DNA from: Acidimicrobiales bacterium
GTDB lineage: Bacteria; Actinomycetota; Acidimicrobiia; Acidimicrobiales; Palsa-688
DNA: 64,000 bases
Reading direction: 5' to 3'
Assembly: GCA_035533095.1 (NCBI GenBank)
Contig: DATLUM010000050.1
Span: forward strand, 124,001 to 188,000
The position numbers and the translations under genes are program-made. Shown here one piece after another: positions 42,781 to 50,362 of the stretch. The notes beneath the pieces are model-generated. The model searched no databases. It had not been told where the DNA came from and saw only the letters and a list, made by a program, of their open reading frames with translations. Positions within the stretch are counted from its first letter, which is position 1. The number at the start of each line of letters is the position of its first letter.

Positions 42781-43527
42781 CTACTCGCCGTGGCGCTCTC
42801 TCAACGCTGCCAGAGCCGCGAACCGTTCGGGGCTTACCGTGATGAACAGCCCAGTAGCCTCCGCTGTCACCTCGCCTTTCGCAATGACGATCGCCGACGT
42901 CGTCACCTTCCGGCCGCTAACCGATTCGAGGCGACCCTCCCAGCGGAGGTCGGTGTGCAGCGGCGTCGGACGGCGGTAGCGGACCGTAAGTGTCCCGGTC
43001 ATCCCGACCTGGCCTGACAGTGACTGCGTGAGACCGAGAACCTCGTCGAACGCAGCCGCCACCAACCCGCCGTGCACGCACCCCGGCGGACCCTCGTACG
43101 CCGAGCCGAACCGTCCTCGCCCGACGACGATGTCGTCCTCCACGTCAAGGATCAGCGGGGGCGCGAGCGGGTTCGACGCTCCCAACAGGGGGGACCAGTC
43201 GAAATGCGCCGGGTCGTGGCCCAGACCGGACGCCTCCGCCAACCCCTCGTACCGGCGGCTCGCGCCGTAGCCCTCGAGCCGTGACACGACGCTCGACATC
43301 AGCTCGGCGACCTCGGCGAGCACCTCCGGAGGCGCCGGCGTAGCAGTGAGCAGGTCGATCGCACGCCGGAACGACTCCCCTACCTCGCGTGCAGAGGCCG
43401 CCCTCTTGTCGACACGTATGGCGCGCGCCTCTTCGAGCTGCTCCTGCAAACGCCGCGCCAACGACGGATCCACTCCGTCATACGGCCATCCAGTTCCACC
43501 TTCAGCCTGCTCCTTGTCGCCCGTCAC
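42781..43527 (-). CDS. PaaI-like hotdog-fold thioesterase
   Basis: This 248-residue protein has a helical N-terminal half (about 20-110) and a C-terminal hotdog domain of the acyl-CoA thioesterase type. The domain reads YEGPPGCVHGGLVAAAFDEV (active-site-like HGG..A..DE), TGTLTVRYRRPTPLHTDLR and GEVTAEATGLFITV. It probably hydrolyses acyl-CoA esters; the substrate is unknown. GTG start overlapping the xthA stop. Confidence 0.85.
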   Translation of the reverse strand: MTGDKEQAEGGTGWPYDGVDPSLARRLQEQLEEARAIRVDKRAASAREVGESFRRAIDLLTATPAPPEVLAEVAELMSSVVSRLEGYGASRRYEGLAEASGLGHDPAHFDWSPLLGASNPLAPPLILDVEDDIVVGRGRFGSAYEGPPGCVHGGLVAAAFDEVLGLTQSLSGQVGMTGTLTVRYRRPTPLHTDLRWEGRLESVSGRKVTTSAIVIAKGEVTAEATGLFITVSPERFAALAALRERHGE

Positions 43528-44306
43528 GCGGCCTCCGCTTCGATGTCGACGAACACCGGGGCGTGATCCGACGGCTGCTTGCCCTTGCGAGCATTGCGGT
43601 CCACGAGCGCCCAGCTGACCCGGTCCACCAGCGACTTCGACAACAGGACCAGGTCTATCCGCATGCCCCGGTGCTCGTGGAAGTCGCCGGCGCGGTAGTC
43701 CCAGTACGAATACAGCCGGTCCTGCGCCCACCGCCGGCGGAAGGCGTCCTCCAACCCCCATGACTCGAGCTCCTGCAGCACCTTCCGCTCGGGCTCGCTG
43801 ACGTGCGTGGACCCGACGAACGCCTCCGGCTTCCAAACGTCAGCGTCCGCCGGGGCGATGTTGAAATCGCCGCAAACTGCAACCTCGTCGCCGGGCGCGC
43901 TCAGCAGGTCGAGGTGCCGGCGCAGCTTCGCCAGCCACTCGAGCTTGTAGACGTAGTGGTCGGAGTCGAGGCTGCGTCCGTTGGGCACGTACACGCTCGT
44001 CACCGAGACCCCGAAGGTGCGAGCAGTCACCAATCTCGTATCGGAATCCGGTTCGATGGTGTCGGCGAACCCGAAGGTGGTCTCCTCGATCGTCTCGCGC
44101 GACAGGATCGCCACGCCGTTCCACTGGCCGTCGCCGTGGTGCACGCTCTCGTAACCGAGCGACGAGAAGGCCATGTGCGGGAAAGCGGCATCGGCCAGCT
44201 TGGTTTCCTGCAGGCAGACCACGTCCGGGCGGGCGTACGCGAGCCACTCCTCGACCCTCGGCAGGCGCGCCTTCAGCGAGTTGACGTTCCAGGTGGCTAT
44301 CCGCAT
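43524..44306 (-). CDS. xthA: Exodeoxyribonuclease III
   Basis: XthA is an AP endonuclease and 3' exonuclease in base-excision repair. The 260-residue protein has MRIATWNVNSLKARLP, VVCLQETKLADAAFP, GWxVD-type SVYVPNGRSLDSD, VCGDFNIAPADADVW, DYRAGDFHEHRGMRIDLVLL, and the C-terminal catalytic KQPSDHAPVFVDIE. Upstream (44307-44346) lies one copy of the GTCTTTTCCC motif. Confidence 0.94.
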   Translation of the reverse strand: MRIATWNVNSLKARLPRVEEWLAYARPDVVCLQETKLADAAFPHMAFSSLGYESVHHGDGQWNGVAILSRETIEETTFGFADTIEPDSDTRLVTARTFGVSVTSVYVPNGRSLDSDHYVYKLEWLAKLRRHLDLLSAPGDEVAVCGDFNIAPADADVWKPEAFVGSTHVSEPERKVLQELESWGLEDAFRRRWAQDRLYSYWDYRAGDFHEHRGMRIDLVLLSKSLVDRVSWALVDRNARKGKQPSDHAPVFVDIEAEAA

Positions 44307-44346: not shown

Positions 44347-45738
44347 TTACGTCGGCGACAGCCGCTTCCCCGGGCGCTTGGCGACCGGGGAGGCCCTCTC
44401 GGCAGCCGCCTTCTCGACGACCGCCGGGGTCTTCTTGCCAGCGGCGTTCTTCGCCGCCGCCTGCCTGGTGGGCTCGTTCTTCTTGGCGGCCGGGGCCTTC
44501 TTGACGGGCGCAGCCTTCTTGACGGGCGCAGCCTTCTTGACGGGCGCGGCCTTCTTGGCGGCTTGGGCCCTCGCGGGTTCGGCCGTCTCCGCCGCCGCCT
44601 TCTCCGCCGCCGCCTTCTTCGCCGCTCCCGCCCTCTTGGGGGCTGCAGCCTTCTTGGCCGGAGCCGGCTCGTCGGATGCGGCCACCTTCTTGGCCGGCCG
44701 CTTCTCCGCCGCCGTCTTCTTCGCGCCTGCCTTCTTCGCCGCCGCCTTCTTCGCGGCTGCCTTCTTCACGCCGGTCTTCTTGGCGCCCCTCGCCGGCAAC
44801 GGGTGAATCTCGGCTTCGACTGTCTCCTCGGTCGGCGAACCTGCCACCTTCTCGAAGCCGGGAAGCGCAAGTTCGATACCGCGCCGCTGCGGATCGAAGG
44901 CCTGGACTACGAAAGTCCGCTCCTCCCCCTTCGACACGACCTCTCGCGCCCGCCTCGGAGGTGGTTCACCCATCGCCGACAGCGGCACGTAGCAGCGAGC
45001 CCCGAAGGCGTCCACGAACGCGCCATGCGAGGAGAACTCCGCAACCTGGCCGGACACCTCGCTCCCCAAGGGGTGGGCTGCGATGAACGTGATGAACGGC
45101 AACGGCTCGTTCACCGGCTCCGCCGGCGGAGCGACTGAACGCCTCCGGCGTGAACGCTTCCCATCGTCGGGCTTGACCGCCTCTTGCGTGGCACGAGCGA
45201 TCGCCTGGTCGACCTTCTTGTCGCGCGGCTTGATCTTCGGCGCCACGGTTTCCAAGCCGCCGCCGGCCTCAGCCTTCTTCTTACGCTTCGCCTCCTTGGT
45301 CACCTCGCGGCTCTTCTGGCCGCGGACCGGGGTCCGGTCCATGAAGATCCAGCCGACGCCGGGCACCGGTTTACCGCCGATCAGGCGGTCTTTGTCGAAG
45401 AGCCACTGGTGCTCGACGTGGAACTCCTGGAACGAGTCGTTCGATAGGACGGTCGCGCCGATCTTCTCCGCTATTCGCAGCAGGAAGGCGTCGCCCCTCC
45501 CTACGGCGCCCGCCGGCGGGGACACGATCTCGCCGGCCGCCTCGGCTTCCTCGAACATCGGGAGTTCGGACGGATCGACGCGGTGCCCGAACGACGCGTC
45601 CACCACGACGGTCACGACGTCGTGGGGATTCTCGGCGACGAACTCGCGTACAGCCTGGTCGAGCTGCGCGAGGCTCGGCAGCGAACGACCCTCCGTCGCG
45701 ATGTTCGACCCGTCTACGACAACATGGCGGGGGCTCAT
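44347..45738 (-). CDS. NYN/Zc3h12a-type ribonuclease fused to S1-like domain and histone-H1-like tail
   Basis: This 463-residue protein has three parts. Residues 1-140 form a NYN/PIN-type RNase: HVVVDGSNIATEGRS (Asp9), VVVDASFG (Asp47), GRGDAFLLRIA (Asp83), and ATVLSNDSFQEF (Asp101), i.e. the four acidic residues of a metal site. Residues about 212-296 resemble an S1/OB RNA-binding barrel (GSEVSGQVAEFSSHGAFVDA, CYVPLSAMGE). Residues about 315-463 are Lys/Ala/Pro-rich with KKAAPV repeats, like histone H1 or actinobacterial HupB tails. A basic linker (140-200) adds nucleic-acid affinity. Start ATG 45738. Probably an RNA-processing or decay enzyme; targets unknown. Confidence 0.8.
   Translation of the reverse strand: MSPRHVVVDGSNIATEGRSLPSLAQLDQAVREFVAENPHDVVTVVVDASFGHRVDPSELPMFEEAEAAGEIVSPPAGAVGRGDAFLLRIAEKIGATVLSNDSFQEFHVEHQWLFDKDRLIGGKPVPGVGWIFMDRTPVRGQKSREVTKEAKRKKKAEAGGGLETVAPKIKPRDKKVDQAIARATQEAVKPDDGKRSRRRRSVAPPAEPVNEPLPFITFIAAHPLGSEVSGQVAEFSSHGAFVDAFGARCYVPLSAMGEPPPRRAREVVSKGEERTFVVQAFDPQRRGIELALPGFEKVAGSPTEETVEAEIHPLPARGAKKTGVKKAAAKKAAAKKAGAKKTAAEKRPAKKVAASDEPAPAKKAAAPKRAGAAKKAAAEKAAAETAEPARAQAAKKAAPVKKAAPVKKAAPVKKAPAAKKNEPTRQAAAKNAAGKKTPAVVEKAAAERASPVAKRPGKRLSPT
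44495..44548. repeat. Three 18-bp tandem repeats coding KKAAPV units
   Basis: The unit GCCTTCTTGACGGGCGCA is repeated at 44495, 44513 and 44531 (last copy ends CG). It encodes the in-frame hexapeptide KKAAPV, or a register of it, in the lysine-rich tail of the NYN protein. Confidence 0.85.
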
Positions 45739-46611: not shown

Positions 46612-49600
46612 TCAGCCGAGTGCCCGCTCCAGCAGATCCTCCTGCTCGAGTTCGTGCATGGCGTGGCTGCCGGTCGCCGGCGACCCCGACGCCACCCGGC
46701 TCACCCGTTCCAGCTTGAAGTCGCCGCCGAGCATGGTGTCCAGCCGGTCGCGGACAAACGTCCAGGCACCCATGTTCTCGGGCTCCTCCTGCAGCCACAC
46801 CACCTCGGAGGCCCGCTCGTATCCGGCGACCGCCGCCGCGATCTGGTCGGCGGGCCAGGGGTGCAGCTGCTCGACCCGCACGATGGCGATGTCGCTGCGG
46901 CCACCCTTGTCGCGGGCACCGATCACGTCTAGGGCGACCTTCCCCGACGCCAGCAACACCCGCCTCACCGACTCGCGGTCGCCCACCCCTGGGTCGTCGA
47001 GCACCTCGCGGAAGTGCCCCCGCTCGAGGTCCGTGACCGGGCTGTAAGCCTCGCGCCCGCGTAGGTAGCGCTTCGGCGTGAAGAGGACCAGCGGCTTGCG
47101 CCCGGATCTCAACACCTGCCGACGCAGGAGATGGAACAGCTGCGCCGCGGTGGTCACGTTCGCCACCTGGATGTTGTCCTCAGCGCACAGGTCGAGGAAC
47201 CTTTCCATCCTCCCCGAGGAGTGGTCGGGGCCCTGGCCCTCGTAGCCGTGGGGCAGAAGGAGCACAAGACCGGAGGTCTGGCCCCACTTGATCTCAGCGG
47301 CCGCCAGGAACTCGTCGACGATCGTCTGAGCCCCGTTGACGAAGTCGCCGAACTGGGCCTCCCACGCCACGAGCCCGTCCCGAGCCACCAACGAGTACCC
47401 GTATTCGAATGCCAGCGCTGCGTACTCGGAGAGCAGCGAGTCGTAGATCGCAAAACGGCCCGGCCCCAACGTCTCCAACGGCAGATGCTCCGCTCCGGTC
47501 ACGTAGTCGACGACCGCTGCGTTGCGGTGCCCGAACGTGCCGCGCCGGGTGTCCTGCCCGGCGACGCGCACGTCGCGCCCGTCCAGCACGAGCGTCCCGT
47601 AAGCGAGAGCCTCTCCCAGGGCCCAGTCGACTTCGCCGGATTCCCAGAGCTTCTGCCGGTTCTGGAAGACCCTCAGGAGCTTGGGGTGGACGGTGAAGCC
47701 CTCGGGGAAGGATCCCAGCGCGTCGACGACCTTCTGGAGTCCCGCCATCTCGACCCCCGTCTCGATGGGCGCAAGCACGGGCGCCGGCGCCGCCGGCGGC
47801 GGGAGGCGAGTCGGCTTGGGCGGGGCGGAGGCGCGGGTCTCGTCGAGCGCCGACTGCAACCGTTTGGAGAAGTCGTCCAAGACGCGTTCGGCCTCGTCCA
47901 TGTCGATGTCGCCACGTCGTACGAGGGCTTCGGTGTAGAGCTTGCGGACGCTGCGGTGCTCCTTGATGAGCTGGTAGAGAAGTGGCTGGGTGAGGCTCGG
48001 ATCATCCTGCTCGTTGTGCCCGTAGCGGCGGTAGCAGACCATGTCGATGACGACGTCCTTGTGGAACTGCTGCCTGAACGCGAACGCGAGCCGCCCGACT
48101 CGCACGCACGCTTCGGGATCATCGCCGTTCACGTGGAAGATCGGCGCCTGGACCATCTTGGCGACGTCGGTTGCGTACACGGATGAGCGCGCCGACTCGG
48201 GGTTGGTGGTGAAGCCGAGTTGGTTGTTGATGACCAGATGCACAGTCCCGCCGGTCTCGTAACCGGGGAGCGCTGACATGTTCAGCGTCTCGGCCACAAC
48301 ACCCTGCCCGGCAAACGCGGCGTCTCCGTGGATCAGCAGGGGCAGCACCGGGTGCTCGTCGCCGGCGTCCTCTCCGACGATCCGGTCCTGTAAGGCGCGC
48401 GCCATTCCTTCCACGACCGGGTCTACCGCCTCGAGGTGCGACGGGTTGGAAGCGAGAACCACGTCGACCGTTTGACCCGCGCGGCTGGTGAACTTGCCCT
48501 TGAAACCCTTGTGGTACTTGACGTCGCCCGAGCCCTGCACCGTTCCGGGGTCGATATTGCCCTCGAACTCCTCGAACAGGTCGCCGTAGCTCTTGCCGAC
48601 GATGTTGATGAGCACGTTCAGCCGTCCGCGGTGGGCCATGCCGATCACGACCTGCGACTGGTCGGCGGTGGCGGCATCGTCGATGACAGCGTCGATGAGC
48701 GGGATCGCCGACTCCCCTCCTTCGAGCCCAAAGCGTTTCTGGCCGATGTACTTGGTGTTGAGGAACTGCTCCAGTGCCTCCGCGGCGTTCAGCCGGTCGA
48801 GTATCCACCGCTGATCGTCGAGAGGCAGCTGCGTCGGTACACCCTCCACGTGATCCTGGATCCACCGCTTCTGCTCGGGTTCCTGGATGTGCATGTACTC
48901 GACGCCGACGGTGCGGCAGTAGGCGTCGCGCAGAACGCCGAGGATGTCGCCCAAGCGCATCCGCTCGGAGCCTGCGAGGCCGTTGGTGAGGAACTCGCGG
49001 TCGAGATCCCAGACGCTCAAGCTGTGCGTGGCCGGGTCGAGCTCCGGGTGCATCTGGGGGTCTTTCCAGTCGAGCGGGTCGAGGTGCGCTATCAGGTGGC
49101 CGCGCACCCGGTAGAGGTTGATGAGGGTGTCCACCTCCATCTGCTTCTTGGCGTGGATCGTCGAGGAGTCGACGAGGTCGTTGCGGTCGCGTTGGCCCCG
49201 AACGGGCTCGTAGGGCACCCCCATCGCCTTGAACACCCGCTCGTAGAACGACTCCGCACCACTCAGCAGCTGGTGCACCTTCTGCAGGAACAAGCCCGAC
49301 TCGGCTCCCTGGATGATGCGGTGGTCGTACGTCGACGTGATGGTTACCACCTTCGACACGCCCAACTCCGCCAGGACTCGCGGGTCGGCGGACTGCCACT
49401 CCGCCGGGTAGTCGATTGTCCCGACACCGACGATCACACCCTGGCCGGGCATGAGACGCGGGACCGATTGCACCGTGCCGATGGTCCCCGGATTGGTCAG
49501 GCTCATTGTGGCGCCGGCGAGGTCGTCCGCGCCGATCTTGCCCCCACGCACCTTGCGGATCAGGTCCTCGTATGCGGACCAGAAGCCGCGGAAGTCGAGC

Positions 49601-50289
49601 GAGTCGGCGTCTTTGATCACCGGCACCATGAGCGTGCGGCTGCCGTCGGGCTTCTCGACGTCGACGGCGATACCCAGGCCTATCCGCGAGTGGTGCATCA
49701 CCGACGGCGTTGCTTTCGGATCGTCGCCGTCCGCCGGGACGAACGTCGAGTTCATCACCGGCACCGCCTTGACGGCCTCGACGATGGCGTATCCGATCAG
49801 GTGGGTGAAGCTGACCTTGCCGGCACTTCCCGTCCGGCTGAGCTGGTTGTTGAGGATGCGGCGGTTCACCTCTAGCAGGCGTGCCGGCACGACCCTGAAG
49901 CTCGTGGCGGTCGGCACGCCCAGGCTGGCGGTCATGTTGGCGGCGATCCTCCCGGCCGCGCCCCGAAGCGGTGTGGCGTCGGGCTCTGCGTGCTCGACAG
50001 AAGCTTCGGGGCGCGCCGCGGCGTCTTTTTCCGAAACTGCAGCCGGGGCCGTCGGCGCCGGTGCGGGTACCGCGGGATGCGCTGCCGGCGGAACCTCGGC
50101 GGTCGTTTCCGCCGGGCCGGTTTCGGGCGTCGACGGCCGTGCCAGATTCGCGCCGCCGGGCCGGTAACCCTCGAAGAACTCCCGCCAGCTCTCGCTGACC
50201 GAGCTCGGATCCTCCCGGTACTGCTCGTACATGTCGTCGACGAGCCAGGCGTTGGGCCCGAACGCGGGGGGCTGGGACTGATCGCTCAT
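46612..50289 (-). CDS. kgd: Multifunctional 2-oxoglutarate dehydrogenase/decarboxylase (E2-E1 fusion)
   Basis: Kgd is the actinobacterial fusion that carries out the 2-oxoglutarate dehydrogenase E1 reaction (TPP-dependent decarboxylation) with an E2-type succinyltransferase domain, in the TCA cycle. It has 1225 residues. A short N-terminal E1 helix ([20 protein letters not shown]) and an Ala/Pro linker (55-100) come first. The E2 catalytic domain (about 112-350) has the DHR motif at His323 ([13 protein letters not shown]), and the E1 region runs to the end. That region has [40 protein letters not shown] and [12 protein letters not shown]. No lipoyl domain is present, as expected of Kgd. Confidence 0.95.
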
Positions 50290-50362
50290 AGCAACAGCCA
50301 GCGTACGCCGCACTCCCGTCCCTGTAGCGCGCCCTGATGCCCCCTTCAGCCACACTGGAAGG

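Follow-up and report, generated by a model that had tools for sequence, protein, structure and literature searches.

A lineage-conserved NYN-S1 protein with a lysine-rich basic segment, a predicted accessory ribonuclease of Acidimicrobiia

Within a 64,000-nucleotide stretch of an Acidimicrobiales genome (the window), we identified a gene whose product joins an N-terminal NYN domain, a single S1 domain and a long lysine-rich tail. We consider it probable that this protein is a chromosomal, housekeeping-type ribonuclease of Acidimicrobiia. It would act as a metal-dependent endonuclease on single-stranded RNA, using its S1 domain to capture the substrate and its basic segment as a tether, and it would be an accessory to RNase E/G. 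The domains themselves are known; their lineage-conserved combination is undescribed in the open-access PMC full text. An earlier note, made from the sequence of the window alone, had known of no described bacterial protein with this architecture, and our search of that full text found none either. Nor did it return a study of RNA decay in Acidimicrobiia.

The gene and its product

The product is a real, conserved protein. The earlier note had placed the open reading frame correctly without stating its strand; it lies on the minus strand, with a start ATG at 45738 and a stop codon at 44347-44349 (Table 1). An alternative upstream GTG would add 10 residues; we prefer the ATG because orthologs start at the equivalent codon. 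The GC3 of 0.91 is consistent with coding sequence. The gene lies on contig 50 of the source genome (G000, 3.44 Mb), which has one copy of it, and its product as a whole is not named by any NCBIfam model.

Table 1. Features of the NYN-S1 gene and its downstream neighbour (positions in the window)
Feature	Position	Strand	Basis
NYN-S1-lysine-tail CDS, 463 aa	44347..45738	(-)	ORF and translation; ortholog starts at equivalent ATG
NYN / Zc3h12a-like PIN domain, aa 4-112	45403..45729	(-)	PF11977; KHNYN/ZC3H12A profile match; structure match to Regnase/ZC3H12
Asp9 codon; aligns with KHNYN D443	45712..45714	(-)	invariant 69/69; alignment
Asp47 codon; no Asp in Regnase/KHNYN; YacP-like strand-2 position	45598..45600	(-)	invariant 69/69
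Asp83 codon; aligns with KHNYN D525	45490..45492	(-)	invariant 69/69; alignment
Asp101 codon; aligns with KHNYN D543	45436..45438	(-)	invariant 69/69; alignment
Family-specific extension, aa 113-145 (RLIGGKPVPGVGWIF..R.PVRG.KSR), predicted beta hairpin	45304..45402	(-)	outside Pfam match
Variable basic linker, aa 146-207 (62 aa, net +10)	45118..45303	(-)	alignment
S1/OB domain, aa 208-311	44806..45117	(-)	PF00575; structure match to M. tuberculosis bS1; high pLDDT
Lys/Ala/Pro-rich tail, aa 312-463, net charge +34	44350..44805	(-)	composition
18-bp tandem repeat in tail, encodes (AAPVKK)n, 4.6 copies, 90% match	44479..44561	(-)	repeat search
Exonuclease III-like gene (xth), next downstream, same strand, 40-bp gap	43524..44306	(-)	PF03372 E 3.6e-32

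A Regnase-like NYN domain with an altered acidic site

The N-terminal domain is recognised by PF11977 over residues 4-112 (E 3.8e-10; 40.1 bits against a Pfam cut-off of 23), and the same model matches all 24 aligned orthologs. Its nearest sequence relatives of solved structure are KHNYN and ZC3H12A (profile match, E 6e-5 to 9e-5). We predicted the structure of residues 1-313 with AlphaFold2 from an alignment of 17 orthologs and compared it with solved structures using VIA-align. The NYN part, modelled at a moderate pLDDT of ~70-80, superimposes on ZC3H12B/C and MCPIP1 with Z ~11 and an rmsd of 2.4-3.0 over 118-127 aligned residues. The NYN domain modelled alone reached a mean pLDDT of 52, too poor for use. 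The two folds on which the earlier note had staked its reading were thus both recovered, since the model matches the Regnase/ZC3H12 PIN domain (Z ~11) and bS1 (Z ~12-13).

The earlier note had assigned Asp9, Asp47, Asp83 and Asp101 to a Zc3h12a-type active site. All four sit at the stated positions and, like N12 and the motifs GRGD and SND, do not vary in any of the 69 orthologs. Only D9, D83 and D101, however, fit the tetra-Asp arrangement of Regnase and KHNYN (D443, D524, D525 and D543 in KHNYN numbering, taken from PMC12709174). Aligned with KHNYN and ZC3H12A, the protein has an invariant glycine, Gly82, at the position of D524, so the metal site probably differs from that of KHNYN and activity is not assured. 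The protein thus resembles the animal PF11977 RNases Zc3h12a/Regnase (MCPIP1) and KHNYN in its NYN fold, in the DGSN and SND motifs and in three of four tetra-Asp positions. It differs from them in Gly82, in the extra invariant D47 and in an extra conserved GGKPVPGVGWIF...PVRG segment. Moreover, Regnase and KHNYN carry zinc finger or KH domains, whereas the NYN-S1 protein carries a bacterial S1 domain and a lysine tail.

D47 sits where YacP/Rae1-type NYN proteins have FD[G/A]. In a profile comparison their FD falls on D47, and from the order of the motifs this residue may stand in for KHNYN D524 as the fourth acid. In YacP-type NYN proteins from Acidimicrobiia, the order is D-G-Y-N … F-D-G … A-D-D … [N/S]-D. 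The profile alignment to YacP is partial (hhalign probability 78%): its first half, including D47, is aligned and its second half misaligned, so that the correspondence of the four acids is one drawn by eye. Rae1/YacP (PF05991), known in Bacillus as a ribosome-dependent mRNA endonuclease, belongs to the same NYN superfamily and appears to share the order D...FD[G/A]...D...[N/S]D, but PF05991 gives no match to the NYN-S1 protein at E up to 10. The source genome also encodes a separate YacP/Rae1-type PF05991 protein (G000:C56:92122-92481, minus strand), which lies ~1.3 kb from a SepH-like gene with a KKA tail.

Precedent for catalysis comes from the CRISPR-associated NYN protein of Bacteroides fragilis, which cleaves single-stranded RNA in a Mn2+-dependent and sequence-nonspecific manner (PMC11346440), and from KHNYN, a Mn2+-dependent single-stranded RNA nuclease (PMC12709174). 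The B. fragilis protein, as a bacterial NYN nuclease, is the best precedent for activity. That protein is linked to CRISPR, and the text of its paper mentions no S1 domain (PMC11346440). By comparison with such enzymes, the NYN/PIN domain described here would most likely be a Mn2+/Mg2+-dependent, single-strand endoribonuclease. In line with a constrained active site, the NYN half is conserved above the S1 half wherever the two were matched separately (87 vs 74%, 83 vs 70%, 81 vs 64% and 76 vs 58%).

Conservation extends past the PF11977 match. The segment around GGKPVPGVGWIFTPRTPVRG is nearly invariant across the 69 orthologs, with R118, G121, G122, P124, G129, W130, R135, P137 and V138 invariant. 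A PDB search with residues 109-150 gave no match, and model confidence is low over the extension (residues 113-145).

A single S1 domain resembling those of bS1

The OB/S1-like barrel reported in the earlier note is well founded. PF00575 matches residues 223-291 (E 2.4e-7; 31.5 bits, cut-off 22) as well as 23 of the 24 aligned orthologs, and the model shows an OB fold, with a pLDDT of at least 90 over most of residues 221-280. It superimposes on M. tuberculosis bS1 (4nni) with Z 12.9 and an rmsd of 1.3 over 85 residues. By both sequence and model, the closest solved structures are domains of ribosomal protein S1 (domains 3 and 4).

Canonical S1 domains contact RNA through Phe, Phe, His, Asp and Arg. 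F241, D282, R285 and R286 are kept in all 24 aligned orthologs, and position 235 is conserved as Phe or Tyr. The residue usually found in the '.vH.S' motif is His. Here, the NYN-S1 family has an invariant proline, Pro252, and its predicted RNA affinity may therefore differ. In this proline, and in having a single S1 repeat, the protein departs from ribosomal S1.

Gly82 at one tetra-Asp position, an S1 domain most like those of bS1 and a basic segment that is universal among the orthologs (see below) would also suit a protein with little or no catalytic activity in its NYN domain, in which the S1 domain and basic tail do the work of an RNA-binding chaperone or of a factor associated with ribosomes. 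We regard this as rather unlikely. The four acids, N12, GRGD and SND are invariant over 69 orthologs, the NYN half is the better conserved of the two, as fits a constrained active site, and YacP-type NYN proteins share the order of the four acids. If the protein is an active ribonuclease, as we favour, the S1 domain would bind single-stranded RNA and hand it to the NYN active site.

A basic segment that changes place

The tail of about 150 Lys/Ala/Pro-rich residues seen in the earlier note measures 152 residues (23% K, 36% A and 11% P). Its description as histone-H1-like holds for composition only, as the HC2 model (PF07382) matches weakly, at 20.6 bits and under its cut-off of 40. Instead of three exact 18-bp copies, the DNA contains two exact copies and a third that departs from them at one base; the AAPVKK peptide does occur exactly three times. 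Tandem repeats of 15 bp are also present in the tail DNA. Variation in tail length, which had been expected between strains, was found between species: 47 of 56 complete orthologs are tailed, and their tails range from 41 to 456 residues (median 171, a roughly 11-fold spread) with a net charge of +9 to +61. Used as a protein query, the tail matched itself alone in a search in which low-complexity matches were discounted.

Both the 18-bp and 15-bp tandem repeats and the wide spread in length would be compatible with a tail that is neutral low-complexity sequence, generated by repeat slippage in GC-rich DNA and devoid of a role of its own. However, in a GC-rich genome lysine makes up 23% of the tail against 1.5-4.7% in four neighbouring genes, all 47 complete tailed orthologs have a basic tail, and the linker is basic where the tail is missing. 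Neutral slippage is hence quite improbable in our view.

The nine remaining complete orthologs (L069, L071, L074-L077, L079, L080 and L051) are tailless. They stop just past the S1 domain, with 0 up to 10 residues beyond it, and it is their NYN-S1 linker that is long and basic. These linkers are longer than those of tailed orthologs and carry a net charge of +13 to +29 (K ~19%), compared with a median of +8 (K ~11%) in tailed orthologs (Mann-Whitney p 4e-6, a value that overstates independence because seven of the nine sequences form one clade). Taillessness takes three changes on the NYN tree, namely this clade of seven and two single sequences, and the linkers of these two also lie above the tailed median (L051 +13, L079 +15). 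Outside the folded domains, all 56 complete orthologs are positively charged, with a net of +12 to +70 (median +39), and the NYN domain is acidic (median net charge -7). As the tailless orthologs have a strongly basic linker instead, this pattern suggests that the basic segment itself matters more than where it sits. Most simply, selection would act on the presence of a basic disordered segment and not on a C-terminal tail as such.

Lysine-rich tails on other proteins

The KKA-repeat DNA pattern occurs in five other proteins of the source genome, including topoisomerase I (TopA), a DUF3071 (SepH-like) protein and a DksA/TraR-type zinc-finger protein. In the latter (L111:1165-2271, plus strand), the Lys/Ala/Pro extension is N-terminal and ~200 residues long. 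Two further open reading frames of the same genome, in which no Pfam domain is recognised (L109:244-1539 and L110:490-1653, both plus strand) have KKA-rich C-termini.

In Streptomyces, lysine repeats hold TopA stably on DNA and give it processivity (PMC7398561), and a comparable lysine-rich tail is described for HupB (PMC5676037). Like the tail found here, these are H1-like C-terminal extensions with KKA-type repeats, carried by proteins that act on nucleic acids; they differ in sitting on DNA enzymes or HU, where ours sits on a predicted ribonuclease. Since such tails are known on actinobacterial TopA and HupB and occur on five other proteins of the source genome, a lysine tail by itself is not unusual, and indeed common in Actinobacteria. 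What is new is its joining to an NYN-S1 protein.

Distribution in Acidimicrobiia

The NYN-S1 protein is close to universal in its order. About 31 of 35 high-quality Acidimicrobiales genomes have an ortholog, and 54 of 61 genomes in our sample of relatives were matched, two of them via the S1 half only. Across 148 genomes of the class, the fusion or its NYN half was found in 32 of 37 order-mates and in 11 of 111 others, with the remainder of the 57 matches covering S1 only; some other orders of Acidimicrobiia thus also have an ortholog. Among ~269 sampled actinobacterial genomes outside the class there was no ortholog, and matches were to the S1 half only. In line with this, PF11977 occurred among 119 actinobacterial genomes in Acidimicrobiia only, each time through the NYN-S1 protein, and in 0 of 14 control genomes. 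The restriction to Acidimicrobiia holds within Actinomycetota, the range of the profile survey. A broad scan of genome_contigs with a single protein query, which reaches close relatives only, returned 18 loci, all in records of Actinobacteria/Acidimicrobiia. Some order-mates additionally encode stand-alone NYN paralogs of 153-256 residues that correspond to the NYN half only (G049:C36:101808-102077, G053:C13:31738-31998, G042:C1:187149-187406 and G151:C130:7393-7668).

The existence of CRISPR-associated NYN proteins in bacteria (PMC11346440) raises the question whether the NYN-S1 protein could be a toxin or antiphage effector that degrades RNA upon infection or stress. This we hold to be highly improbable: the gene is conserved, mostly single-copy and near-universal in the order, it has a fixed position among metabolic genes, it has no match in the PADLOC antiphage-defence library, and the fusion was absent from the phages, plasmids and viral contigs searched.

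Gene neighbourhood and other ribonucleases

In Acidimicrobiales, the usual gene order is kgd with a divergent HAD hydrolase gene, the NYN-S1 gene and then, downstream and co-directional, xth; a thioesterase gene and a convergent UvrD-type helicase gene often come next. xth adjoins the NYN-S1 gene in most order-mates with enough flanking sequence, and the two genes touch or overlap in several genomes (e.g. L125 7264/7264 and L127 5316/5319). None of xth, kgd, the HAD hydrolase, the thioesterase or the helicase accompanies the NYN-S1 gene in other orders of the class (L117, L130 and L150-L153). The linkage to xth may therefore reflect shared gene order and not function, and we rejected the xth operon as proof of joint function. 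The order-wide conserved neighbour at 46612-50295 (minus strand) encodes a fused 2-oxoglutarate dehydrogenase with E2-like and E1 domains in one protein.

The position of xth next downstream, in the window as in most order-mates, and the KKA-type tails on TopA and the DUF3071 (SepH-like) protein of the same genome could point to a DNA-centred role, in which the tail sits on the nucleoid and the NYN-S1 part joins exonuclease III, encoded next door, in clearing RNA from R-loops or repair sites. The absence of this neighbourhood in other orders argues against it, and so does the equal conservation of kgd, the HAD hydrolase and the UvrD-type helicase, so that the linkage may be ordinary shared gene order. 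Such a role is distinctly unlikely.

Of 41 relatives, 34 have RNase E/G above its cut-off, and the source genome has the enzyme too; RNase Y exceeded its cut-off in 0 of the 41. With RNase E/G present, we rejected a replacement of RNase E or RNase Y by the NYN-S1 protein. As RNase E/G is present in the source genome and in most relatives, the NYN-S1 protein is likely an accessory RNase, which may take part in RNA turnover or quality control.

Proposed mode of action and implications

In the ribonuclease model that we favour, the long disordered basic segment, C-terminal in most orthologs and placed between NYN and S1 in a few, would keep the acidic nuclease domain on polyanions, be they RNA, ribosomes or nucleoid DNA. 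Tethering of this kind would raise the local concentration or dwell time of the enzyme, by analogy with the lysine repeats of actinobacterial TopA. Nucleoid tethering and cotranscriptional RNA decay, both put forward in the earlier note, would be hypotheses within this model. A more specific version, in which a basic segment, C-terminal or in the linker, would anchor this nearly universal Acidimicrobiales RNase to the nucleoid or nascent RNA for cotranscriptional or R-loop decay beside RNase E/G and exonuclease III, seems unlikely to us.

Taken together, the presence of the NYN-S1 protein in nearly all Acidimicrobiales suggests that these bacteria have a further RNase in addition to RNase E/G, one that is absent from the sampled actinobacteria outside the class. 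The shift from tail to linker in a few lineages provides a natural experiment on what makes a disordered, lysine-rich segment work, its charge or its position, a question that also bears on the tails of TopA and HupB.
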